From positions 1 through 50,262 of the forward strand of contig CALQFT020000006.1 in assembly GCA_943329925.2 (NCBI GenBank): 50,262 nucleotides of DNA, written 5' to 3'. The DNA is from Opitutus sp. GAS368 (GTDB lineage Bacteria > Verrucomicrobiota > Verrucomicrobiia > Chthoniobacterales > Chthoniobacteraceae). Position 1 is the first letter of the stretch. Each line of letters begins with the position of its first letter. A program made the position numbers and the translations under genes. Below are positions 21,785 through 37,095 of the stretch, one piece after another. The notes beneath the pieces were generated by a model, which had not been told where the DNA came from, made no database searches, and worked only from the letters and a program-made list of their open reading frames with translations.

Positions 21785-23287
21785 TCAGTGAGCGGCCGCT
21801 GCGACGCTCGGCGCACTGGTGCGCAGGGCTGAGAGGACAGGGTTAGGGTTGATACCGAAGTAGAAAATAGAGGCGATGAGCAGGCTGATGGTGATTTTAC
21901 TCAGCGGAGCCACCGTGATGGGGGTGGTCTCCAGCGGATCATGCCAGTACATGGCGGCCACCACGCGGAAGTAGTAATAGAAGCCCGCTCCCACGGTGAT
22001 CACCCCTAGGGCGAGCAGCCCCCATTGATGGGCTTGAATGATCTGTGCGAAGACGAGAAATTTGCCGTAGAACCCCGCCGTCAAGGGGACGCCTGCCAAG
22101 GAGGACATCGCCACCACCATGGCGAAAGCGAGAAACGGGGAGCGCTTCGAAAGTCCATTGAAGTGCTGGATTTCTTCGCCCTTGGAATTCACCGAAACCA
22201 AGGTGAGCACAGCAAACGCCAAAAGCGTCATGAGCATGTAGGCGAACAAATAGTAGCCGACAGTCGTGCCGACTCCGAGGAGCAAACTGCCTCCCGCGCC
22301 AATGCAGGCAATGGCTGTGAGCAGGTAACCGGCGTGGCCGATGCTCGAGTAGGCCAGAAGCCGCTTGAGGCTGTTTTGGGGCAGGGCTGCGAGGTTGCCA
22401 AAAATCAGCGTCGCCCCCGCGACAATGGCTAGCACCTGCAGGACTTTGGGCAAAATGGATTCCACACCGAGGAAGGGTTCCAGTACGCGGAGAAACAGCA
22501 GGAAGCTTGCCGCCTTGGATCCCACAGAAAGAAACGCAGTCACAGGCGTCGGGGCACCTTCATACACATCTGGGACCCAGCTTTGGAAGGGAACAGCGGC
22601 TACCTTGAAACCGAGGCCTACGAGAACCAGCAGGAAAGCAAAGAGAATCGCGGTGTCGTCCCCTCGTAAGTGGGCGAGTTTTTCGGCTACCTTGGTGAAA
22701 TGAGTTTCGCCCGTCAGGCCGAAAATCCAAGTGATACCGTACACGATAAAACCCGTGGAAAGCGCTCCCAGAATGAGGTATTTCACACCGGCTTCGAGGG
22801 AGGCGTGGCTACGGCGAGCGTAGGCAACCAGTACGTAGAAGGAGATGGTGACTAGCTCCAAGGCGGCGAAGGCCATCACTAAATCTACGGCAGACGCCAT
22901 TAACATGAGCCCTGTGCACGTAAAAAGCGGTAGAATGTAGAATTCGCCGGTTCCCGCACCTTTGTGGGCGGAGGGGAGGAGTTTTGCCAAGGTCGACTCG
23001 TAATCCAGAGCCAGCACGAGAACCGCAATAGTCGTCAGTAGCGCAATCCGCTTGAAAACTAAGGAGACGCCGTCTCCTGAGTAAAAGTTCCAGTAACTCC
23101 CAGGCGCCAGCGTTGCTGGGGCTGATGCGGTGAAGAAACTAATCGCAAAGATCCAGCCGAGGCAGAAAATAGCGATGTGCGCCAGACCACGCTTGTTTGT
23201 GCTGTTAGAGAAGGACTCCGCCAGCAACAGAATGAAGCCGAGGGCCAGAACCAGTATTTCGAGTGAGATGGGCGGAAACATGGGCAC
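21785..23287 (-). CDS. nuoN: NADH-quinone oxidoreductase subunit N
   Basis: 500 aa antiporter-like membrane subunit; position at end of nuo cluster; SSIGHAGYLL, FYVLVAYARRSHASLEAGVKYLILGA. Confidence 0.9.
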   Translation of the reverse strand: MPMFPPISLEILVLALGFILLLAESFSNSTNKRGLAHIAIFCLGWIFAISFFTASAPATLAPGSYWNFYSGDGVSLVFKRIALLTTIAVLVLALDYESTLAKLLPSAHKGAGTGEFYILPLFTCTGLMLMASAVDLVMAFAALELVTISFYVLVAYARRSHASLEAGVKYLILGALSTGFIVYGITWIFGLTGETHFTKVAEKLAHLRGDDTAILFAFLLVLVGLGFKVAAVPFQSWVPDVYEGAPTPVTAFLSVGSKAASFLLFLRVLEPFLGVESILPKVLQVLAIVAGATLIFGNLAALPQNSLKRLLAYSSIGHAGYLLTAIACIGAGGSLLLGVGTTVGYYLFAYMLMTLLAFAVLTLVSVNSKGEEIQHFNGLSKRSPFLAFAMVVAMSSLAGVPLTAGFYGKFLVFAQIIQAHQWGLLALGVITVGAGFYYYFRVVAAMYWHDPLETTPITVAPLSKITISLLIASIFYFGINPNPVLSALRTSAPSVAAAAH

Positions 23288-24769
23288 TTAGCGGAGAGCC
23301 GCCTCCAGAGTGGGTTTGAGGTAGCCGAGGAAGTAGCGAGGAAAAACTCCCCCTAGCAGCAGGGTGAGGGGCAATAGGGCGAGTGCGAAGCGTGCGCTTC
23401 CAGCGAGGTCGGTCCACTTGGCGGAAGTCGCGGTGGGTTGGCCGAGGAAAACGGCCTTGTAGGCCCGTAACATATAGACTGCAGAAATTACCACGCCCCA
23501 CAACGCGAGGATGGTTGCTGTCTTTTGAAAGGAGGTGGCGCCGGGACTGAATCCTCCGAAAAAGACCATGGTTTCGCTGGCGAAATTGGCGAAACCAGGC
23601 AGACCGATGGATGCAAAGGCCGCCATTGCGAAACAAATTCCCAAAAAGGGAACACTTTTGGAGGCGCCGCCGAGCCTGTCGAATCTCAACGATCCTTCAT
23701 GGTCACGAATCGTGCCGCTCACTGCAAAGAGGGCGGCTACCGAAAGGCCGTGGGCAAACATGAGCAGGCACGCGCCAGAGAGGCCAGCCAGGTTTAGGGA
23801 AGCGAGGCCGAGGAATATGTACCCCATGTGCATTACGCTGGAGTAGCCGATCATAAAGTCCAGCTTGCGTTGGGAGATCGTCACAAGGCCCACGTACAGA
23901 ATGTTGCCTAAAAGCGCAACCAACAGAAGGTCTTGAGCCGTGTAGCTACCCCAAACCGGTTGGTGAAAGGCATCCGGCAGAAACGGCAAAACCAAACGGA
24001 CCATTCCGTAGAGACCAAACTTTTTAAGCACCCCAGAGTGTAACATCGCCACTGGAGTCGGGGCTGATGCATAGGCCGGGGCAGCCCAAGAGTGGAACGG
24101 AAACAGGGAAATCAGGATCCCGAAACCGATGGTGAGCAAAAACCAAGGACGAATTTGAGCCGCGGCCGGGATCATGTGGGCTGCACCGAGTTGCTGCAGC
24201 GCTTGAAGGTCAAATGTCCGACTGGAGACCGGAAGCGCCATGAGCAAATCCACCAATCCTGCAAGGAGCACAATGCTCCCAACGCCGAGGTAAATGGTGA
24301 TCTTCCAAGCTGCCGCCTGCCGCTCGCCGGTGCCCCAGAGCCCGATGAGCAGAAAGGTTGGCACTAGCGCTAATTCATGGAATGCGTAGAAGAAAAAGAG
24401 ATCCTTGGCCAGGAAGGCCCCGGTGGCGCCCGCGCTAATGAGCAGCACTGAGCCGTCGAACAGGTTGGCCCGCTTTTCCAAGTTGGGCAGGAACCAGACT
24501 GCAGTGACCGTGACTAGCGCTGTAAGCAGCAACATCACAAGGCTCAATCCGTCTACGCCAACAGAGTACCGGAGATCCACGCCCGGGAATAGGGGATTGG
24601 TTTCGAAAACGAATTGATAGCCGGCTTTGGCTTGGTTATAGCGGAACCACAGGGCAAGCGTGAGAGCCAGCTGCAAAAGGGCTGAACCTTTCGCCCAAGT
24701 GCGGTTGCCGAACCCCAAAAATAGGGCCGCTGCGGTGACGATGGGAATGAGAAGCAGGGTGGTAAGCAC
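23288..24769 (-). CDS. nuoM: NADH-quinone oxidoreductase subunit M
   Basis: 493 aa; YSVGVDGLSL, FYAFHELALVPTFLLIGLWG, LDFMIGYSSVMHMGYIFLG. Confidence 0.93.
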   Translation of the reverse strand: MLTTLLLIPIVTAAALFLGFGNRTWAKGSALLQLALTLALWFRYNQAKAGYQFVFETNPLFPGVDLRYSVGVDGLSLVMLLLTALVTVTAVWFLPNLEKRANLFDGSVLLISAGATGAFLAKDLFFFYAFHELALVPTFLLIGLWGTGERQAAAWKITIYLGVGSIVLLAGLVDLLMALPVSSRTFDLQALQQLGAAHMIPAAAQIRPWFLLTIGFGILISLFPFHSWAAPAYASAPTPVAMLHSGVLKKFGLYGMVRLVLPFLPDAFHQPVWGSYTAQDLLLVALLGNILYVGLVTISQRKLDFMIGYSSVMHMGYIFLGLASLNLAGLSGACLLMFAHGLSVAALFAVSGTIRDHEGSLRFDRLGGASKSVPFLGICFAMAAFASIGLPGFANFASETMVFFGGFSPGATSFQKTATILALWGVVISAVYMLRAYKAVFLGQPTATSAKWTDLAGSARFALALLPLTLLLGGVFPRYFLGYLKPTLEAALR

Positions 24770-24784
24770 GGTCGCGATCCCTCG

Positions 24785-26635
24785 TTATTTGGTGAGAATG
24801 TAAAGCAGGACGACGACGCCAGCGCCAAAGAAGAAGGCGTAGCCCTGCAAGTTGCCGAATTGTAGGAGACGCAGGGTGTAGCCCGCGCCCCAGGTGATCG
24901 CGCAGATGCCGCGCACGATGACCCCGTCGAGAATGAAATGGTCAAACCAGCCGAGGAACCCAGCCAGCATATCTTGAGTCCCGGCGACAAGCGCACTGTA
25001 GATCTCGTCAATGTAGAATTTATTGGCAAAAAGCGGGATTCGTACTGGATCTTTAATCCGGTATGCATCCTTGAAAATCGCCGGATCCTTAATTGCTGGA
25101 TGGTAGAGCATCCACGCGCCCACCGTTCCTAGCACAAAGGCGCCCACCGCGAGCGCGGGAACCAAGGTGACGGCTGCCGCTGCATGGACGTGGTGGAACA
25201 GTTCCTTTCCAAAAATTGCCTCGGCGAACCCAGCGTACCCTGCAATCGCGGAAAGCACTGCGAGAATCAGGAGAGGAACGGTCATTCCCGCGGGGCAATC
25301 GTGGCCATGGCTGGCGGCGTCGGTCCTAGGGTGTCCAAAGAAGGCGACCACCACAAGGCGGGTCATATAGAAGGCAGTCAGCAGGGAGGTGAGCAGACCG
25401 GCGGCGAAGACGGGCATGCTCTTGTGCCAGGCGGCCAGCAGAATGGCTTCTTTGGAGAAAAAGCCAGCGAGGAAAGGCATCCCAGTCAGTGCGAGCGTCC
25501 CAATGGCGAAGGTGAGGAACGTCTTGGGCATGGTCTTGCGCAGGCCGCCCATTTTCCAGATGTCCTGTTCGTGGTGCAGTGCGTGAATGACCGCGCCGGA
25601 ACCAAGGAAGAGAAGGGCCTTGAAGAAGGCGTGCGTAAAGAGGTGGAACATCGAGGCACCCCAAGCGCCGACGCCGATGCCTGCGACCATTAAGCCAAGT
25701 TGGGAAAGCGTCGAGTAAGCGAGGATACGCTTAATGTCGTTCTGTTGTGTCGCCATGAGGGCGGCCATCAGGGCGGTGATTGCCCCAACTGTTGCGATCA
25801 CCCCTAACGCTGTGGCGGAGGGTTCCAAAATGAAGAAAATCCGGGCAAGCATGTAGACGCCTGCAGCGACCATTGTTGCCGCATGGATTAATGCTGAAAC
25901 TGGCGTGGGGCCTTCCATGGCGTCCGGTAACCAGACGTGGAGGGGCATTTGAGCCGACTTGCCCACCGCTCCGCAGAATAGGCAAAGCCCCGCAAGCGTA
26001 AGGAAAGTGGGATTCGCTGTGAGCTTGGCGAGGTTTTCCTGGATGCCTGCAAATTCCACGGTGCCGACGGTGGACCAAACCAGCAGAATGCCGGACATGA
26101 AGCCGAAGTCGCCGATGCGGTTTGTCAAAAACGCTTTGTTTGCAGCTTTGGCGGCAGATTCTTTGGTAAACCAGTGGCCGATGAGCAGGAAACTGCTCAC
26201 ACCAACCAATTCCCAAAAAATGAACATCATTGCTAGGTTGTCGGCGAGAACGATCCCGAGCATGGAAAACATGAATAAGGAAAGCGCTCCGAAAAAGCGG
26301 GATTTGCCTTCATCTTCGGCCATGTAAACCGTCGAGTAGACATGGACCAATGTTCCCACCCCGGTAACAACCAAAAGCATTACCCGAGTGAGGGCGTCTA
26401 CTTTCAAGCCAATACCCAGTTTAAGGGCCGGCCCCAGATCAATCCACGGAATGGCGGTGAGCACATCCGTGGCGTTTTTTACCAGAAGAAGTGAGGCTCC
26501 GAGGGCAACGAATACGGCGCTCAGAGAGAGCAGTACGCTCAAGGCTTTTGAGCGGTGGGCAAACAGCAAAATCAGCGAGGCACTAGCCAGCGGGCTGAGC
26601 AGGATGAGCCAGGGTAAGGTGGATTCCATGGGCAA
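24785..26635 (-). CDS. nuoL: NADH-quinone oxidoreductase subunit L
   Basis: 616 aa; FIFWELVGVSSFLLIGHW, LPDAMEGPTPVSALIHAATMVAAGVYML, long C-terminal region. Confidence 0.95.
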   Translation of the reverse strand: MPMESTLPWLILLSPLASASLILLFAHRSKALSVLLSLSAVFVALGASLLLVKNATDVLTAIPWIDLGPALKLGIGLKVDALTRVMLLVVTGVGTLVHVYSTVYMAEDEGKSRFFGALSLFMFSMLGIVLADNLAMMFIFWELVGVSSFLLIGHWFTKESAAKAANKAFLTNRIGDFGFMSGILLVWSTVGTVEFAGIQENLAKLTANPTFLTLAGLCLFCGAVGKSAQMPLHVWLPDAMEGPTPVSALIHAATMVAAGVYMLARIFFILEPSATALGVIATVGAITALMAALMATQQNDIKRILAYSTLSQLGLMVAGIGVGAWGASMFHLFTHAFFKALLFLGSGAVIHALHHEQDIWKMGGLRKTMPKTFLTFAIGTLALTGMPFLAGFFSKEAILLAAWHKSMPVFAAGLLTSLLTAFYMTRLVVVAFFGHPRTDAASHGHDCPAGMTVPLLILAVLSAIAGYAGFAEAIFGKELFHHVHAAAAVTLVPALAVGAFVLGTVGAWMLYHPAIKDPAIFKDAYRIKDPVRIPLFANKFYIDEIYSALVAGTQDMLAGFLGWFDHFILDGVIVRGICAITWGAGYTLRLLQFGNLQGYAFFFGAGVVVLLYILTK

Positions 26636-26643
26636 GCGACTGG

Positions 26644-26970
26644 TTAGAACTTCAGAGACACGAGGTCTTCAACGTGGGTGGTTTGCCTCGCTCGGTAAAG
26701 CGCCACGATGATGGCCAGCCCCACGGCGACCTCCGCCGCAGCAACAGCGATGATGAAAAACACCAGCACTTGGGCGTTGTAATTGGGTAGACCGTCCGCG
26801 CCGACGTGGTAGCGGGAGAAGGCGACGAGGGACAAATTGGCGGCGTTGAGCATCAGCTCAAGGCACATGAAAATCGTGATAATGTTGCGCCGCAACAAGA
26901 CCCCAGCAAAGCCAATGGAAAACAGCAGCCCGCTTGCGAGCAGATAATGATTGAGCGTCAGAGGATTCAC
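26644..26970 (-). CDS. nuoK: NADH-quinone oxidoreductase subunit K
   Basis: 108 aa; [48 protein letters not shown]. Confidence 0.95.
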
Positions 26971-26982
26971 AGTGGGCGCAGG

Positions 26983-27486
26983 TTACTTGAGTTCACGACG
27001 GGAGAGGACGATGACCCCAACGGAGGCCACCAGAACGAGGACGCCGACTGTCTGGAAGGGTAAATTAAACTGAGTGAACAGGGTAATGCCGACTTGGCGG
27101 ACGTCATCGAGTCGAGCGACTCCTAGGGGAGGAAAGGGATTCTTCCCTATGGAAAACGAGTTCAAAACATGGAGGAGTTCAAACATGAATCCCACTGCCA
27201 CGGCGCCGCCTCCAGCGAGAGACAGTCTGTTGAACTGGCGGCGCTGCTCAGCTTTAAGGTCCAGTAGCATGATGATGAAGAGAAACAGCACCATCACCGC
27301 TCCGGCGTAGACGAGAATCTGAATGACTCCGATAAAGAAGGCGTCCAGGCCAACAAACAAGGCAGACAAACAAAGAAAAGATGCCACCAAACTCAACGCG
27401 CTGGCCACGGGATCCCGGTTGAGGACCACCGAAGTTCCGAACGCCAACATCAGGGCTGTGAATAACCAAAAGAGAATGGGAGACAT
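26983..27486 (-). CDS. nuoJ: NADH-quinone oxidoreductase subunit J
   Basis: 167 aa; DAFFIGVIQILVYAGAVMVLFLFIIMLLDL. Confidence 0.93.
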   Translation of the reverse strand: MSPILFWLFTALMLAFGTSVVLNRDPVASALSLVASFLCLSALFVGLDAFFIGVIQILVYAGAVMVLFLFIIMLLDLKAEQRRQFNRLSLAGGGAVAVGFMFELLHVLNSFSIGKNPFPPLGVARLDDVRQVGITLFTQFNLPFQTVGVLVLVASVGVIVLSRRELK

Positions 27487-27501: not shown

Positions 27502-28032
27502 TTATTTCTCTGGATTCCACTTGTGCACGAGATCTGGCATGGTTCCGCCTAGCTCGTACAATTTCTTCTTGTGATGCACCATGTCGGCGCGACTTTCACC
27601 TGTAACCGCGTAATCCTTGCGCAAGAAAATGGCTTGTTCGGGGCAGACCTCTTCACAAAGGCCGCAGTAGATGCAGCGTGCCATGTCGATGTCGAAGGCT
27701 TCCGGGGCCTTTTCCGCTTTGGCAAATTGGCTGCTATCTGGAACTGATCCCGGCGTGATCCTTATGGCGCGCGGGGGGCAGATAAATTCACATAACTGGC
27801 AGGAGACGCACTTTTCACGGCCATGCTCGTCCATCACCAAGGTGGGGGCTCCACGGTAGTATTCAGGCAGGTGCGCATCCCACTTTTCCTCGGGATACTG
27901 CATGACGATTTTGGTTTCGCCAGCGAGCATCTTACGGAGATGCTTAAAGGTGATAGCGAGACCAGCCACGATGTTTGGGAGATACAGTTTCTCCCAGAAA
28001 GTAAGGTTTGGCCGACGTACGGTATATGCCAT
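27502..28032 (-). CDS. nuoI: NADH-quinone oxidoreductase subunit I (2x 4Fe-4S ferredoxin)
   Basis: 176 aa; CVSCQLCEFICP and CIYCGLCEEVCP. Confidence 0.95.
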   Translation of the reverse strand: MAYTVRRPNLTFWEKLYLPNIVAGLAITFKHLRKMLAGETKIVMQYPEEKWDAHLPEYYRGAPTLVMDEHGREKCVSCQLCEFICPPRAIRITPGSVPDSSQFAKAEKAPEAFDIDMARCIYCGLCEEVCPEQAIFLRKDYAVTGESRADMVHHKKKLYELGGTMPDLVHKWNPEK

Positions 28033-28059: not shown

Positions 28060-29205
28060 CTATTTTACGAATGCAATCACCGCAGCGGTGATGAAAATGT
28101 TGACTAACGCGATTTCAAATAGATAGAGCCAGCCCAATTTCATCAATTGGTCGAAACGAAAACGCGGCAAAGTCCAGCGCACCCAGATGAAGCAAAGGAG
28201 AAGTACAACCACCTTGGCAAAAAAGACGGTTATATGAATCAGCCCCAGCAGGCCGCCCGCTAGAGTGAGAGACGTTTCCGCTGTGTTTACCGGCAAAAAT
28301 GGAAGATGCCATCCGCCCAGAAAGAGCACGACGATGAGCGAGGAACCCGCGATCATGGCCGCGTATTCGCCTAGGAAGAAGAGCGCGAATTTCATCGAGG
28401 AATACTCGGTGTGGTACCCCGCGACCAGTTCCGTTTCGGATTCGGGCAAGTCGAACGGCAGGCGGTTTGTTTCCGCAAACATCGAGATGGTAAATACAAC
28501 GAAGGAAACGAATACAGGGAACCACAAAAGAACTTCGCGGAGGGTTAATTTTCCATCCGTAAAGGGAAGCAGGAGCCAGCCGTTCTCGACTTGATAACGG
28601 ATTGCTTCCGAAAGGTTCAGATCGCCAATAATCATCAAAACCGGAACTGCGCTCAATCCCAAGGAGAGTTCATAACTGATCATTTGGGAGGTGGAGCGGA
28701 TCCCTCCGAGGAACGGATACTTTGAATTCGAAGACCATCCCGCTAGAACGATTCCATAAACGCCGACTGAAGCGATGGCGAAGACGTAAAGGATTCCGAC
28801 GTTCACATCAGCCACAACCATTTTTTGGCCGAACATGTAATTGCCAAATGGCAAAACAGCTAACGTTGAAAGGGCTGGAACCATTGCCAGCACTGGAGCC
28901 ATCCAGAAGTAGAATTTATTGACGTGGCCCGGAGTGAACTCCTCTTTGAGTAGGAACTTCACGGCGTCGGCGATGGGCTGACCGAGTCCGCCCAAGTAGA
29001 GCTGAAGGTCACTCTTGAAGCCCAACAGCGAAGTTGGAAAGCCGGTCCGGTTGGGGCCCAGACGGTCTTGAATGAGGGCGCTGACCCTTCGCTCCGCGTA
29101 CACTGTGTACGAGACAAGCGGCAGCACAACGAGGAAGATCAGGAACAGCGTTTTGGCGACTGAACTGAGCATCAACAGCCAGGGAATGTCATTGAGGAAA
29201 TCCAT
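28060..29205 (-). CDS. nuoH: NADH-quinone oxidoreductase subunit H
   Basis: 381 aa; YAERRVSALIQDRLGPNRTGF; AETNRLPFDLPESETELVAGYHTEYSSMKFALFFLGEY. Confidence 0.97.
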   Translation of the reverse strand: MDFLNDIPWLLMLSSVAKTLFLIFLVVLPLVSYTVYAERRVSALIQDRLGPNRTGFPTSLLGFKSDLQLYLGGLGQPIADAVKFLLKEEFTPGHVNKFYFWMAPVLAMVPALSTLAVLPFGNYMFGQKMVVADVNVGILYVFAIASVGVYGIVLAGWSSNSKYPFLGGIRSTSQMISYELSLGLSAVPVLMIIGDLNLSEAIRYQVENGWLLLPFTDGKLTLREVLLWFPVFVSFVVFTISMFAETNRLPFDLPESETELVAGYHTEYSSMKFALFFLGEYAAMIAGSSLIVVLFLGGWHLPFLPVNTAETSLTLAGGLLGLIHITVFFAKVVVLLLCFIWVRWTLPRFRFDQLMKLGWLYLFEIALVNIFITAAVIAFVK

Positions 29206-29215
29206 GGTTTAAAAA

Positions 29216-30862
29216 TCAGGCGGTTGGAGCGGCTGTCTCACCTTTTGGGAGTAATTGAATCCCGAGGTCGCCAATTTTCCCGAGGTTCAAGCCGTTGAAT
29301 TGCGCAACGTCTTGGGAAAGGGCCCGGAAAACGTCCTCAATAGAGTGCAGCGACAGGGTGGACCCAGCGCCTGTGAGTAGTGCGGCCAAAATTTCCCAGT
29401 CGTCCTTGGCGTGTCCGGCGGGTTCGACTGCTTTGTTCAACCGCTGGAGCCGGCCGTGGATGTTGATCATGGAGCCCCGTTTTTCTGCCCATGCCGCACC
29501 TGGAAGGACAACGTGCGCCGCCTTCGTTGTCGCACTTGAATGCATTGAGGTGGTCACCAAAACTTTCAGTTTTGAAAAGTCTTCCGGTGAAAACCCGCAC
29601 TCGGTGAGATCTTCGCCAAGGCTGATGACTCCTTGAATGCTGCCATTTCGTACCGCTTCGAGGAGTTCAGGAAGGGTTGTTCCCGGAGTCTCGCCTGTGA
29701 GGCCGAGCAGTTTTGCTCCCGCGGTATTCGGATTGCGGTCTTCTGGAATGAGGATTCCGTCTGGCTTGCCCTTGCGGGGAACTACATCGTGAACTGTGAT
29801 ATTCAGCGCCTTTGCGAGGTGGTGCGCGAGATAAAGCTCTTCGTTGGTGAGGCGTGCGGAAGCGACCATGGCGAGCTTGCCCGCGGCCTTGAGGCTGCTG
29901 AGGGCAACCGCCGTTGCCTCGGACCATTCCACGGGCTTTCCGTCCACGGAGGGCTGGGTGAGGCGATCTTCGCTGTGGATCGCCTTGTAGGCAAGGCGGT
30001 GCGAATCCGGCATCCAGCACTGATTCACATCATTGTTTTCGCGTGGTGTAATCCGGAAGATTTTCTCTTCACGGCTACCGATCAAAATATTGCAACCCAG
30101 ACCGTCGCTGACGTCGATGGTCATGGTTTCTTTGAGGAACCAGACGCGCATCTTGAAGCGGAAGTCGGTGGAAGTCAGCGCGCCCACGGGGCAGATGTCG
30201 ACGGTGTTGAGCGAGTAATTGCTTTCCAGCGTTTTGTCCGGATGGCAGGCAATGGTGGAGAAACCGCCGCGATCAACGAAGCCGAGGACGTCGTCATGGG
30301 CGACTTCCTTCATGAAGCGGATGCACCGTGAGCACAGCACACAGCGTTCGGCGTCCAAAGTGACGCGCGGCCCAAGTTCGACGTTCTTTGGTTTTTTGAC
30401 TTTCCGTTCCAGAAAGCGAGACTCTGCATTGCCATACTCGACGGAGAACTCCTGAAGGCGGCATTCTCCGGCTTGGTCGCATATGGGGCAATCCAAGGGG
30501 TGATTGATGAGGAGGAACTCCATGACGCCCTTGCGGCATTCCTGAACCATCGGCGAATCAGTGCGGACGCCCATTCCTTCGACGATGTCTTGTGCACAGG
30601 AGATCTGGGCTCTGGGAATCCAGCCGATTTCGGCGTGACCATCTGTTCCCATGATCGGTTTGCGATCCGGGCCCATTTTGGGCATGCCCATTTCGATTAA
30701 ACACATCCGGCAATTGCCGGGAATGGAAAGCTTTGGATGATAGCAATAATGCGGGATAAACTTACCGGCCTTATTGCAAGCATCGATGAGCTTGGTTCCT
30801 TTGGGAAACTGCATCCATACACCATCAACTTGGACATTTAGCAGTGGGACTTCGGTGCTCAT
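29216..30862 (-). CDS. nuoG: NADH-quinone oxidoreductase subunit G (short form)
   Basis: 548 aa; N-terminal 2Fe-2S, HPLDCPICDQAGEC, CVLCSRCIRF, CPVGALTSTDFRFKMRVW; reduced molybdopterin-like region. Confidence 0.92.
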   Translation of the reverse strand: MSTEVPLLNVQVDGVWMQFPKGTKLIDACNKAGKFIPHYCYHPKLSIPGNCRMCLIEMGMPKMGPDRKPIMGTDGHAEIGWIPRAQISCAQDIVEGMGVRTDSPMVQECRKGVMEFLLINHPLDCPICDQAGECRLQEFSVEYGNAESRFLERKVKKPKNVELGPRVTLDAERCVLCSRCIRFMKEVAHDDVLGFVDRGGFSTIACHPDKTLESNYSLNTVDICPVGALTSTDFRFKMRVWFLKETMTIDVSDGLGCNILIGSREEKIFRITPRENNDVNQCWMPDSHRLAYKAIHSEDRLTQPSVDGKPVEWSEATAVALSSLKAAGKLAMVASARLTNEELYLAHHLAKALNITVHDVVPRKGKPDGILIPEDRNPNTAGAKLLGLTGETPGTTLPELLEAVRNGSIQGVISLGEDLTECGFSPEDFSKLKVLVTTSMHSSATTKAAHVVLPGAAWAEKRGSMINIHGRLQRLNKAVEPAGHAKDDWEILAALLTGAGSTLSLHSIEDVFRALSQDVAQFNGLNLGKIGDLGIQLLPKGETAAPTA

Positions 30863-30889: not shown

Positions 30890-32917
30890 TTAACGTGTGG
30901 CGGCCGGTGCCATGATTTCGTGGCCGTTGCCTCGGGGCGCACGCACCGCCGGGATCACGTCATGTGCGACCAACTCGTCGCGTGTGTATTCGGGGGGCAT
31001 GGGCGGCGGAATCGGTTTGAGGGACTTCGCGCTGAACTCCTCTTTGAACTTCGCCAGAAAGCTTTGAGTGGGCCAGGAACACGCTTCTCCGAAGGCGCAA
31101 ATCGTCTTGCCCGCGATGTTGTCCGCAACGTTTTTGAGTGTTGCGGGATCCGTCTCCACCCCGCCGCCAGCCACAATGCGGTCGGTGATCTTCTTCATCC
31201 ACTGGGCGCCTTCGCGGCAGGGGGTGCATTGTCCACAGGATTCGTGGGCATAGAACTCGTTGATGTTGTTGAGAATCTCCACCATGTTGCGGGTGTCATC
31301 CATCACGATGACTCCGCCGGAACCAGCCATGGAGCCGGCGGCCGCCAAGGAATCAAAATCCATCGGGAGATCCTCCAAAGCGACTTCCTGGTCCTTGATT
31401 TTAAACTTCTCTCCGGCGCGCAGAACCTTTGCTGAACTCCCGCCTGGGATAACCCCCTTGAGGGAACGTCCCGGCTTCATGCCGCCGCAGACGTCGTTGA
31501 TTAATTCCCCGAGGGTGATCGAGCCGACGGCAACTTCGTAATAACCCGGCTTTTGAACGTCACCGGATACGCACAGGATGCGAGTGCCGGTATTGTTGGG
31601 ACGCCCAATTTTTGCGTAAGCTTCACCACCCATTTCCACGATATGCTTAACGTGGCAAAGCGTTTCGACGTTATTCACAATGGTAGGGCATTGATAAAGG
31701 CCCAATACCGCAGGAAAATAAGGCGGTTTAATGCGGGGATAAGGCCGTTTGCCTTCCAAGGATTCGATAAGGCCGGTTTCTTCGCCGCAAATGTACGCTC
31801 CGGCACCGCGATGTACGTACAATTCTAAATCAAAACCAGATCCTAAAATATTTTTACCGATGAGGCCCTTGGCGCGCGCATCTGCTAACGCTTTTTCTAA
31901 AATTTCCGCCCCTTCCGGAAATTCGCCGCGGATGTATAAATAAGCGAGATTCGCTCCGACGGTAAAACAGGAGATAATCATCCCCTCGATCAATTGATGA
32001 GGATCTTGGTGGATGATGTAACGATCCTTGAATGTTCCTGGTTCGGATTCGTCGGCGTTACAAATGAGATAAGTGGGTTTGGGGCCTCCGCGTTTAATGA
32101 AACTCCACTTGGTCCCGCAGGGAAAGCCGGCGCCGCCGCGTCCGCGCAGGCCGCTTTTTTTGACTTCTTCGAGAAGGTCTTCAGGCTTGGAGGCCAGGGC
32201 TTTTTTTAACGCTTCGTAGCCGCCTTCTGCGAGATAGGTTTTGAGATCGTTGGCGCGACCGGGCTTGTCGATATTCTTGAAAATGAGCCGGTGCTCGCGG
32301 GGGTGTGGAGCGGTGGTTAAAGCCCGCGTGGCTTGGGAAGTTTTAGTGTTCCAGAGAGCTGCCGCGTCCGCGATCTTGATGTTCTCCTGAAACAGGTCGT
32401 TCACCATTACAACTGGGGCTGAGCCGCAGGAAGCGAGGCACTCCACGAATTCGATGGAAAACTTGCCATCGGGACTAACCGCAATGGGGTTGCCGTGACC
32501 GGGGTTGTGGACGGCGTGGCCGGTGAGTTTTTTGGGAGAATGGTCGTGGCTGTTGTCCCCGTGGGCATGGCCTTGCATGTGCTCATTCCACGTTTTGATA
32601 TCGATGTTAGCCGAGGCGGCTAGGGCATCGCGCAACTGATAACTTCCGGCCATGGAGCAGGAAAGCGTGCGGCAGACTCGAATATGAGTCTTGCCGGCAG
32701 GTTGCCTGCGGAACATGGGGTAGAAGGTGACCAGTTCAAGGACGTTAATGGGCTGAAGCTCGAGCTTCGCCGCGATCCAAGAGACGGCCGCATCGGAAAT
32801 GAAGCCGAAATGCTCCTGCCAGAGATGGAGCAGGGGCAGTGAGGCGCTCCGTTTGGAGACGGGATAATGGGAGATCGCCTCTTCAATTTGGGCTAAAAGT
32901 GCCGCTGGGATGGTCAT
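30890..32917 (-). CDS. nuoEF: Fused NADH-quinone oxidoreductase subunits E and F
   Basis: 675 aa; NuoE thioredoxin-like 2Fe-2S (CRTLSC...CLASC) joined to NuoF (GLRGRGGAGFPCGTKW, SCGQCTPCREG, ICAFGEAC). Confidence 0.95.
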   Translation of the reverse strand: MTIPAALLAQIEEAISHYPVSKRSASLPLLHLWQEHFGFISDAAVSWIAAKLELQPINVLELVTFYPMFRRQPAGKTHIRVCRTLSCSMAGSYQLRDALAASANIDIKTWNEHMQGHAHGDNSHDHSPKKLTGHAVHNPGHGNPIAVSPDGKFSIEFVECLASCGSAPVVMVNDLFQENIKIADAAALWNTKTSQATRALTTAPHPREHRLIFKNIDKPGRANDLKTYLAEGGYEALKKALASKPEDLLEEVKKSGLRGRGGAGFPCGTKWSFIKRGGPKPTYLICNADESEPGTFKDRYIIHQDPHQLIEGMIISCFTVGANLAYLYIRGEFPEGAEILEKALADARAKGLIGKNILGSGFDLELYVHRGAGAYICGEETGLIESLEGKRPYPRIKPPYFPAVLGLYQCPTIVNNVETLCHVKHIVEMGGEAYAKIGRPNNTGTRILCVSGDVQKPGYYEVAVGSITLGELINDVCGGMKPGRSLKGVIPGGSSAKVLRAGEKFKIKDQEVALEDLPMDFDSLAAAGSMAGSGGVIVMDDTRNMVEILNNINEFYAHESCGQCTPCREGAQWMKKITDRIVAGGGVETDPATLKNVADNIAGKTICAFGEACSWPTQSFLAKFKEEFSAKSLKPIPPPMPPEYTRDELVAHDVIPAVRAPRGNGHEIMAPAATR

Positions 32918-33276
32918 GGCTTTTGCGGTTCCGGTTCTGGCGTTTTGGAGAAGGCGGGGACTCGATTGATCAACTTGTTATCAAAAAAATGGAGCTCGGT
33001 CGTCTGGCCGTCTTGGTCGTAGTAGTAACGGGTTACGGGCACCTGTTTTTTCTGCGTCTCAAGTTCTAATGTGGCGTTTTCAATGCGATCAGGCTGTCCG
33101 AGAATGGATTCGACTTCTTTTGGGGATAAATATTTCTTTGCTGTACCTAGTTTATCAAAGCGCTGATTCACTGCGCTGATATTTGATTCGGAAATCTCCG
33201 GTTTGCAGCCTATCGCTCCAAATGATGAAGTGATAATTAGCAAAAACGTATTTTTCCAGCTCATGAATTTTGGCAA
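32914..33276 (-). CDS. Small putative lipoprotein, BamE/SmpA-like fold candidate
   Basis: 120 aa; hydrophobic N-terminus ending AIGC; LSPKEVESILGQPDRIE...YYYDQDGQTTELHFFDNKLINRV resembles BamE/SmpA-type repeats; 4-nt overlap with nuoEF. Confidence 0.6.
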   Translation of the reverse strand: MPKFMSWKNTFLLIITSSFGAIGCKPEISESNISAVNQRFDKLGTAKKYLSPKEVESILGQPDRIENATLELETQKKQVPVTRYYYDQDGQTTELHFFDNKLINRVPAFSKTPEPEPQKP

Positions 33277-33299: not shown

Positions 33300-34577
33300 T
33301 TACCGGTCGCTTTCACCCATTACAAAATCCAAGGATCCAAGAATAGCGACCACATCGCTCATCAAATGACCCGGTAAAATTTTGGGAAGAATGCTCAGGT
33401 TGACAAACGAGGGGGCACGGATTTTCAAGCGGTGCGGTACGCCTCCGCCCTTTGATTGGATGTAAAAGCCCAATTCACCTTTTGGATTTTCGGCGCTGAA
33501 ATACACTTCGCCCACGGGGGCATCCAATCCCTCGGTGTGAAGAATAAAATGATGGATCAGCTCCTCCATTTTAGTCATCACCGCAGTCTTGGAGGGGGGT
33601 AAGTTTTTGGGATCCGAAACCGTGATGGGGCCGCGGGGCAGGGTGTCCAGCACTTGGTGAAGAATTTTCACTGACTGACGCATTTCCTCTACCCGGCAAA
33701 GGTAGCGATCATAGCAATCGCCAGCGGAACCAATGGGAACGTCGAAGTCGTACTTTTCGTATCCAAGATAGGGGTGGCGCTTGCGCAAATCATGATCCAC
33801 GCCGGAGCCGCGCAAATTGGGCCCGCTCAAGCCGTAGGAAATGGCGTCTTCCTTGGTGATAACCCCGACGTCCTTGGTGCGATCAACGAAAATTCGATTT
33901 CTCGAGAGCAGCGCATCGACTTCGTTCAGCGAGGGCGGGAACTCCTCCAAGAACTTGTGGACCATGGGGAAGAACGCATCGTTAAGGTCGCGCGTCATTC
34001 CGCCAATGCGGGTGTAGCTGGTGGTAAAGCGCGCCCCGGAAATGACTTCACACAGATTATAAATCTTTTCGCGCTCGGTGAAGGTGTAGAGGAAAACCGT
34101 CATCGCTCCGGTGTCCATGGCGAAGGCGCCTAGACCGAGCAAATGGGAGGAGATGCGCGCCAATTCACAGCAGATTACGCGGATAGCTTGGCCGCGGGGA
34201 GGGAGTTCCCACCCCATGAGCTTTTCCACCGCCATGGCGTAGGCCACGTTGTTGGCCAAAGGCGCGAGATAGTCCAATCGGTCCGTGTAAGGGACGAATT
34301 GGTTGTAAGTCATGTTCTCGGCGATTTTTTCATCTCCGCGGTGGAGATAACCGAGATCTGGAGTAGCCTTGGTGATGGTTTCGCCATCCATCTCCAGCAC
34401 CAAGCGTAGGACGCCGTGGGTGGCAGGGTGGGACGGCCCCATGTTGAGGATGAGCTTCTCGCCTAGAAGATCGGTCGCTACACCTGCAACGGGGCTGCCA
34501 GTTGCGATATGTTGAAGGCCAGCCTGTGTTTTTGCTAGAGTATCAGGCTGCTCAAACTGCTGGGTGGTAACGGCCAT
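33300..34577 (-). CDS. nuoD: NADH-quinone oxidoreductase subunit D
   Basis: 425 aa; NMGPSHPATHGVLRLVLEMDGE, GYLHRGDEKIAENMTYNQ, C-terminal DFVMGESDR. Confidence 0.96.
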   Translation of the reverse strand: MAVTTQQFEQPDTLAKTQAGLQHIATGSPVAGVATDLLGEKLILNMGPSHPATHGVLRLVLEMDGETITKATPDLGYLHRGDEKIAENMTYNQFVPYTDRLDYLAPLANNVAYAMAVEKLMGWELPPRGQAIRVICCELARISSHLLGLGAFAMDTGAMTVFLYTFTEREKIYNLCEVISGARFTTSYTRIGGMTRDLNDAFFPMVHKFLEEFPPSLNEVDALLSRNRIFVDRTKDVGVITKEDAISYGLSGPNLRGSGVDHDLRKRHPYLGYEKYDFDVPIGSAGDCYDRYLCRVEEMRQSVKILHQVLDTLPRGPITVSDPKNLPPSKTAVMTKMEELIHHFILHTEGLDAPVGEVYFSAENPKGELGFYIQSKGGGVPHRLKIRAPSFVNLSILPKILPGHLMSDVVAILGSLDFVMGESDR

Positions 34578-34650
34578 AGAAGAAGGAAAATCCGGTGTAA
34601 ATCAGACTGGGAGAACTTAGGGAGGGAGGGAATGAGCCAGCAAGCCGAAT

Positions 34651-34668
34651 TTGTGAAATGTTTCACAA
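34651..34668. promoter_or_regulatory. Rex- or CRP-type operator candidate upstream of nuoD: TTGTGAAATGTTTCACAA
   Basis: 8-nt perfect inverted arms TTGTGAAA/TTTCACAA with 2-nt spacer; matches TTGTGAA-N4-TTCACAA (Rex) and also TGTGA-N6-TCACA (CRP); 73 nt separate it from the nuoD start. Confidence 0.6.
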
Positions 34669-35715: not shown

Positions 35716-37095
35716 CTACTTGGCTGCTGGAGCTGCTGGAGCTGCTTTGACTTCGCCAAAGGGTTTACCTCCATCGGCTAGCAAAAACGCCTGCACTTTC
35801 CCGTTCCAGTCCCCGGCCATGACGGTGTCCCCAGAAAGGACTGCGCGCAGAGCGATTTCGGTGAGTGGCTGGGTGGTCAGCAGTGCTTTGCCTGATTGGT
35901 CCCAGACCTTGGCCACCTTATCCCGTCCGCAAGTCACGATGCGGCCGTCAGCGGTAAAATCAACGAATTCACAGCCGCCGGCGTGGGCGGTCCATTTTTT
36001 GCGTTCTTTACCCTCCGCAATATCCCAGAGGACCACCGTTCCGTCTTGGCCTGCCGAGACCAGCAGTCCGGGAAGAAAGGCCAGCGCGTTGACCGCAGTT
36101 TTGTGCCCCGGCAGGGTTAGGGCTTCCGAACCTGAGGCGCTTTCCCACACAGTGATTCCGCCGGCTCGGTCTGCGCTGGCGACGTAGGCACCGTCTGCAG
36201 AATAGGCCAGCGCAGTGACCCAGTCTGTGTGTTTTTTGATGGTACGAATCAGCTTGCCGTCGGTTGTGCTGAAAAATTTAAGCAGACGATTTGGGCCGCC
36301 TAATACCACTGTGGTTTGATCTGGACTGAGGTCAGCAGCAAAGACTTGATCCACCTCGTTACCCAGGGTTGCAATGCGCTCGCCTGTGGTGATTTTCCAG
36401 AGCACGACCTTGCCGGATTTGGCGCCTACGCCTCCGCCTGCGAGTAGGAGTTCTCCGTTTCGCGAAAAGCGCAGAATGGTGGGAAGTCCTTCCGGAAATG
36501 GAAGCACGCCGAGGAGTTCAAGGGTGTCTGCGTGATAGAGTAGTACCTGCTTCTGGCCGCCTACGGCCATTAGCGGCGCCCACGGACTGGCCGCGAGTGC
36601 GATCAATGCGTTGGAGCGGGTTGTGTCAATCACTGGGCCCGTTGGGAGATTTCCAGGCATTGGCGGCGGGCCTGAGGGGCGGGCCAGACTGACGGCAGCG
36701 GCCGCGACATTATTGGCCACGGGTGCACCCTTGCTGTTAAGGGATTCCAGAGCGCGCGTCGCGATCCAGCGTTCAAGAATGGCAATATCGTTGGCGTTGA
36801 GTCTGTCGCCCTTTGGGGGCATGAAGGGCTCTTCAGTGCCCTTGACGCACTTCAAAAGGAGGCTTGCTGCTGCGTCTCCCGGCAGAACAACCTTCCCGCC
36901 ATCGGAGCCCAAGAGCGCTCCGCCATAGGTGGTGAGGTCGAGTCCCGCCTTCTTTTTGTCAGGATTGTGGCAGTTGTTGCACGCATTCTGCAGGATGGGC
37001 AGTACGTGGTCCTCGTAGGTGACTTTTTCCGGGATGGCGGCAGCCGCATGAAGCACGAAGGCGGCACTGCCAAGAAGTAAAAGTGGGGTGCGCAT
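35716..37095 (-). CDS. Planctomycete-type cytochrome c (PSCyt1) plus WD40 repeat protein
   Basis: 459 aa; CNNCHNPDKKKAGLDLTTYGG; WD-like VWESASGSEALTLPGHKTAVNALAF, DGTVVLWDIAEGKERKKWTAH. Confidence 0.85.
   Translation of the reverse strand: MRTPLLLLGSAAFVLHAAAAIPEKVTYEDHVLPILQNACNNCHNPDKKKAGLDLTTYGGALLGSDGGKVVLPGDAAASLLLKCVKGTEEPFMPPKGDRLNANDIAILERWIATRALESLNSKGAPVANNVAAAAVSLARPSGPPPMPGNLPTGPVIDTTRSNALIALAASPWAPLMAVGGQKQVLLYHADTLELLGVLPFPEGLPTILRFSRNGELLLAGGGVGAKSGKVVLWKITTGERIATLGNEVDQVFAADLSPDQTTVVLGGPNRLLKFFSTTDGKLIRTIKKHTDWVTALAYSADGAYVASADRAGGITVWESASGSEALTLPGHKTAVNALAFLPGLLVSAGQDGTVVLWDIAEGKERKKWTAHAGGCEFVDFTADGRIVTCGRDKVAKVWDQSGKALLTTQPLTEIALRAVLSGDTVMAGDWNGKVQAFLLADGGKPFGEVKAAPAAPAAK

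Follow-up and report, generated by a model that had tools for sequence, protein, structure and literature searches.

The closest described systems are the Rex regulators of Gram-positive bacteria. Rex of Streptomyces avermitilis binds the motif found here at the nuo and atp operons and represses both (PMC5355995). Known Rex biochemistry predicts that NAD+-loaded Rex binds and that NADH brings about its release (PMC5355995, PMC8063818, PMC2883068, PMC8836258), and the characterised Rex proteins are mainly repressors (PMC5355995, PMC8063818). For Rex of Thermotoga maritima, conserved DNA-contact residues have been listed, with Glu34 and Ser52 called variable (PMC8836258). Because control of nuo and atp by Rex is already known from Streptomyces, the locus described below represents a new lineage for a known principle.

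The window, i.e., the whole stretch of 50,262 nucleotides that was analysed, belongs to a 3.8-Mb Chthoniobacteraceae MAG (assembly about 94% complete) of a lake-dwelling verrucomicrobial bacterium. The features of the complex I operon and of its upstream region are collated in Table 1.

Table 1. Operator, predicted promoter boxes and complex I genes (positions in the window).
Feature	Position	Strand	Basis or remark
Predicted Rex operator TTGTGAAACATTTCACAA (minus-strand reading)	34651..34668	-	exact consensus match; kept before nuoD in relatives
Predicted -35 box TTGCTG of nuoD promoter, 7 nt after operator	34638..34643	-	comparative alignment
Predicted -10 box TAAGTT, 18-nt spacer	34614..34619	-	information peak 23-28 nt after TTG
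nuoD, first gene of complex I operon	33300..34577	-	PF00346 Complex1_49kDa, E=1.5e-115
120-aa ORF between nuoD and nuoEF	32914..33276	-	no Pfam match
nuoE-nuoF fusion gene	30890..32917	-	PF01257 and PF01512 in a single 675-aa protein
nuoG	29216..30862	-	Pfam domains
nuoH	28060..29205	-	PF00146
nuoI-like ferredoxin subunit	27502..28032	-	4Fe-4S domains and operon position
nuoJ	26983..27486	-	PF00499
nuoK	26644..26970	-	PF00420
nuoL	24785..26635	-	PF00361 and PF00662
Two more antiporter-like subunits, nuoM and nuoN by position	21785..24769	-	PF00361 in both

Operator sites and promoter geometry

Operator sequence and count: The initial annotation had placed a perfect palindrome 73 nt before nuoD. 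The 18-mer TTGTGAAATGTTTCACAA was found at exactly the position given (34651-34668), upstream of nuoD and 73 nt from its start codon, and it fits TTGTGAAN4TTCACAA with zero mismatches, as had been claimed. The palindrome is perfect for the two 8-bp arms (TTGTGAAA/TTTCACAA) only; the two central bases (TG) are unpaired, and the original wording does not extend to them. The site is the sole exact match to TTGTGAAN4TTCACAA in the window. Scanning of the 3.8-Mb genome with both motifs named in the annotation gave three exact Rex-type sites, situated before the operons of nuoD, actA (alternative complex III) and atpB (ATP synthase), and four matches to TGTGAN6TCACA, three of which are the same full Rex operators. 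About 0.005 exact Rex-type matches were expected from the base composition (P(>=3) about 2e-8), and across the order sample (117 genomes) the reversed control pattern was not matched once. With up to two mismatches, 15 matches were obtained in this genome versus 8 for the reversed control, and its two one-mismatch sites had no counterpart in the seven same-genus genomes, so the weak sites are probably mostly due to chance. No exact operator was found near or before the rex gene itself in the genome scan.

Neighbouring genes: The second exact site precedes atpB, in the operon for F1Fo ATP synthase. The third precedes a multihaem cytochrome gene, which is followed by genes for a molybdopterin-like/Fe-S protein and membrane subunits; cytochrome oxidase genes lie further downstream on the same strand. 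By gene order and domains, this operon has the layout of an alternative complex III (act); with NCBIfam, the act genes returned only related complexes (Qrc, Dsr), below the cut-offs. Homologues of the 120-aa ORF of the complex I operon stand directly after an operator in some relatives (tblastn neighbours of sites). On the other side of the nuoD operator, a divergent metallophosphoesterase gene (34857, + strand) begins 189 nt from the site, a distance that varies in relatives, and control of this gene by the site is not favoured. A protein encoded at 35716-37095 of the window carries WD40 repeats together with a cytochrome c domain of the Planctomycete type.

Promoter geometry: The predicted -35 and -10 boxes are both weak and were derived from comparative alignment, since a generic sigma-70 scan found no promoter here. 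Transcription is predicted to start some 30 nt ahead of nuoD. Of 82 dereplicated nuo/atp/act promoters, 81 had a TTG in the 32 nt that follow the operator (98%, versus 17% in shuffles); the search motif (CTTG or TTGAC) was picked after the sequences had been inspected, and the 98% is therefore descriptive and not a test. At these promoters the operator comes first and the predicted -35 box follows it. The gap from the operator end to the TTG measures 5-8 nt in 72 of the 81 promoters, 15-17 nt in nine and 9-14 nt in none, the two classes being one helical turn apart; the long gap was counted, by our own reading of the alignment, in some five lineages. The -10-like peak keeps a fixed distance from the TTG, not from the operator. 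In relatives, nuoD upstream regions devoid of the operator often retain a CTTGC -35 box, and these promoters thus seem to work without Rex.

Regulon in relatives: Sites that did not adjoin nuo, atp or act in the first pass were assigned from neighbouring ORFs, representatives being scanned with NCBIfam and the remaining members of the groups being assigned by common sequence motifs. MqnE, NuoB and ATP synthase subunit A scored above the cut-off near sites; polyprenyl-diphosphate synthase (chain length unspecified) and a relative of cytochrome bd subunit I were further NCBIfam-scanned targets. The cyd, mqnE and polyprenyl-diphosphate synthase genes are thereby added in relatives, and some sites have no clear target. 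In one relative, an operator (L204, 2501-2518) is situated at the start of a flavoprotein gene whose product is taken, from sequence and without family assignment, for an NDH-2-like enzyme. In six loci (L097, L099, L103, L176, L177, L181) the operator separates mqnE (menaquinone synthesis) from a divergently oriented gene of the sigma-70 family (ECF-type). The targets (nuo, act and atp here; cyd, mqnE and polyprenyl synthase in relatives) belong to energy metabolism or oxidise NADH, and the regulon is broader than could be seen in the initial annotation. The operator of polyprenyl synthase, and less clearly that of mqnE, occupies the -10/start region: it follows a -10-like box, from which about 4 nt separate it, and overlaps a GTG, possibly the start codon. 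This arrangement (L142, L154, L178, L206 and others) suggests a leaderless, Rex-repressed polyprenyl-diphosphate synthase transcript.

Rex gene and its co-occurrence with the operator

Regulator: The search for a Rex homologue that the initial annotation had called for yielded a single canonical, full-length rex gene (contig C89, 206-aa protein). Its product combines the winged-helix and Rossmann domains (PF06971 and PF02629) and is matched by the NCBIfam Rex models and by PDB Rex entries (E about 1e-37). The DNA-contact residues listed as conserved for T. maritima Rex are kept as R13, S34, K44, Q47, R49, K50, G59, R61, G62 and Y65 (own numbering, alignment read by eye), and the positions called variable (Glu34, Ser52) differ here. 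Likewise kept, as matched by eye in the alignment, are the NAD-pocket residues Ala and Tyr (PMC8063818).

Conservation: Three exact sites, before nuoD, atpB and actA, were found in all seven same-genus genomes, and many related genomes have an exact match 45-105 nt upstream of nuoD. The best match before nuoD in relatives is mostly perfect or else poor. Rex-bearing relatives keep the site before nuoD, and the sampled nuoD upstream regions of Rex-less relatives are without it, so that the lack of conservation named in the initial annotation as a possible refutation was not encountered. Many genomes titled Verrucomicrobiales or Akkermansiaceae also have a perfect nuoD site (the site alone was examined there).

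Co-occurrence: Within the order sample (117 genomes), 44 genomes had both Rex and site, three Rex only, six the site only and 64 neither, i.e., nine were discordant (Fisher 6e-22 with genomes as units, kinship being addressed only by the genus-level table). The genus-level counts were 18/1/1/18 in the same order of categories. For the rest of the class sample the counts of genomes were 31/17/3/107, the 17 being Rex-bearing genomes without an exact site. Two of the three order genomes with Rex only (G014, G053) carry a one-mismatch site before nuoD. Of the six with a site and Rex undetected, G021, G046 and G052 are 89-92% complete, and rex may be missing from these assemblies for that reason; G063 and G086, however, are 93-95% complete, and the site of G006 looks like a chance occurrence. 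Two divergent Rex-like genes lie a few hundred bases apart in each of G098 (contig C124) and G177 (contig C21), G098 being without an exact operator.

Proposed control and alternative readings

Identity of the binding protein: The palindrome is very probably a Rex operator. Points against this reading are the position of the operator ahead of the predicted -35 box, with a one-turn spacing that would suit an activator as well, the six order genomes with a site and Rex undetected, the 17 Rex-bearing genomes of the rest of the class that have no exact site, and the lack of an exact operator before rex. The initial annotation had left the regulator ambiguous between Rex and CRP. The CRP half-sites are indeed matched through TGTGAN6TCACA, and binding by a cAMP- or oxygen-responsive member of the CRP/FNR family could be imagined; the ambiguity nevertheless resolves to Rex, whose gene is present. 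No HTH_Crp_2 domain above the family cut-off and no CRP/FNR protein (cNMP-type sensor plus HTH_Crp) passing the cut-offs were found in the genome (about 94% complete), and every cNMP-binding domain sits in an open frame of 527-794 aa, which exceeds the length of a CRP/FNR protein. With the N6 motifs being nearly all Rex operators and with site presence following Rex across the order, a CRP/FNR regulator is very unlikely and was rejected. A functionless chance palindrome is even less credible: the motif is short, and nothing else speaks for chance; the excess of exact sites, all of them before oxidative-phosphorylation operons, stands against it, and its conservation before nuoD in many relatives refutes it.

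Proposed mechanism: Knowledge of the Rex family leads to the following scheme of NADH feedback. At a low NADH/NAD+ ratio, an NAD+-loaded Rex homodimer would bind the operator and hold down transcription of the nuoD-N operon; on a rise of NADH, NAD+ would be displaced by NADH, Rex would be released and complex I would be made. Alternative complex III and ATP synthase would be made along with it, their operons carrying the same operator. As the genes of ATP synthase and alternative complex III are preceded by this site as well, the respiratory chain as a whole appears to be tuned to the NADH level.

Sign of control: Repression is considered reasonably probable as the sign at the nuo/atp/act promoters. 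It is preferred throughout the regulon because characterised Rex proteins are mainly repressors, because the operators of the quinone genes lie on the -10/start region and because operator-less nuoD promoters keep their -35 box. The alternative has the Rex identity in common with this reading and differs from it in sign, so that the confidences in the two are not exclusive. According to it, NAD+-Rex activates nuo, act and atp by sitting on one helix face just upstream of the -35 box and aiding RNA polymerase, rising NADH then lowering these operons, and it represses mqnE and polyprenyl synthase from the sites within their promoters. The stepped gaps, with the long one in several separate lineages, are what same-face protein contact predicts, and the weakness of both boxes also fits. 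Occlusion from the same face could, however, produce the spacing equally well, the retained CTTGC box and the repressor character of Rex elsewhere count against activation, and it would be odd for a single respiratory regulon to be controlled with both signs; activation is thus possible, though unlikely. Regarded as slightly more doubtful still is the general proposal that Verrucomicrobiota Rex acts as a helical-phase-dependent regulator of dual sign, which would bind just ahead of the -35 box and activate the oxidative-phosphorylation operons at low NADH, and would repress quinone-synthesis genes from sites that overlap their promoters, thereby setting the whole respiratory chain.

Significance and comparison with known systems

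Rex would provide a concrete redox control of complex I, alternative complex III and ATP synthase jointly, through a compact regulon of three operons, in a phylum for which few regulators have been characterised. Natural comparisons are offered by the lineages that have neither Rex nor operator, and the upstream operator position, stepped by one turn, raises the question of whether Rex can act by contacting polymerase. No earlier report of Rex in Verrucomicrobiota or Akkermansia was found in an incomplete literature search; within the literature searched, what appears to be new is the lineage, the targeting of alternative complex III and of quinone synthesis, and the placement of the operator.

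The operator consensus is the same as that of Rex in S. avermitilis and Streptomyces coelicolor, where nuo and atp are directly controlled (PMC5355995). In Streptomyces, the nuo/atp operators contain mismatches and overlap the region from -35 to -10, whereas those described here are exact and lie upstream of the predicted -35 box. Streptomyces targets include cyd, rex-hem and ndh2; here alternative complex III is a target, and in relatives mqnE and polyprenyl-diphosphate synthase are. The consensus of Staphylococcus aureus Rex, TTGTGAAW4TTCACAA (PMC2883068), also resembles the present operator, and S. aureus Rex does not bind before its own gene, just as rex has no exact site before it here; its targets are mainly fermentation and anaerobic genes, in contrast to the oxidative-phosphorylation operons of this genome. 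CRP/FNR regulons have the half-sites TGTGA/TCACA in common with the sites described, but here these extend to the full Rex motif, in a genome in which no CRP/FNR protein was detected.
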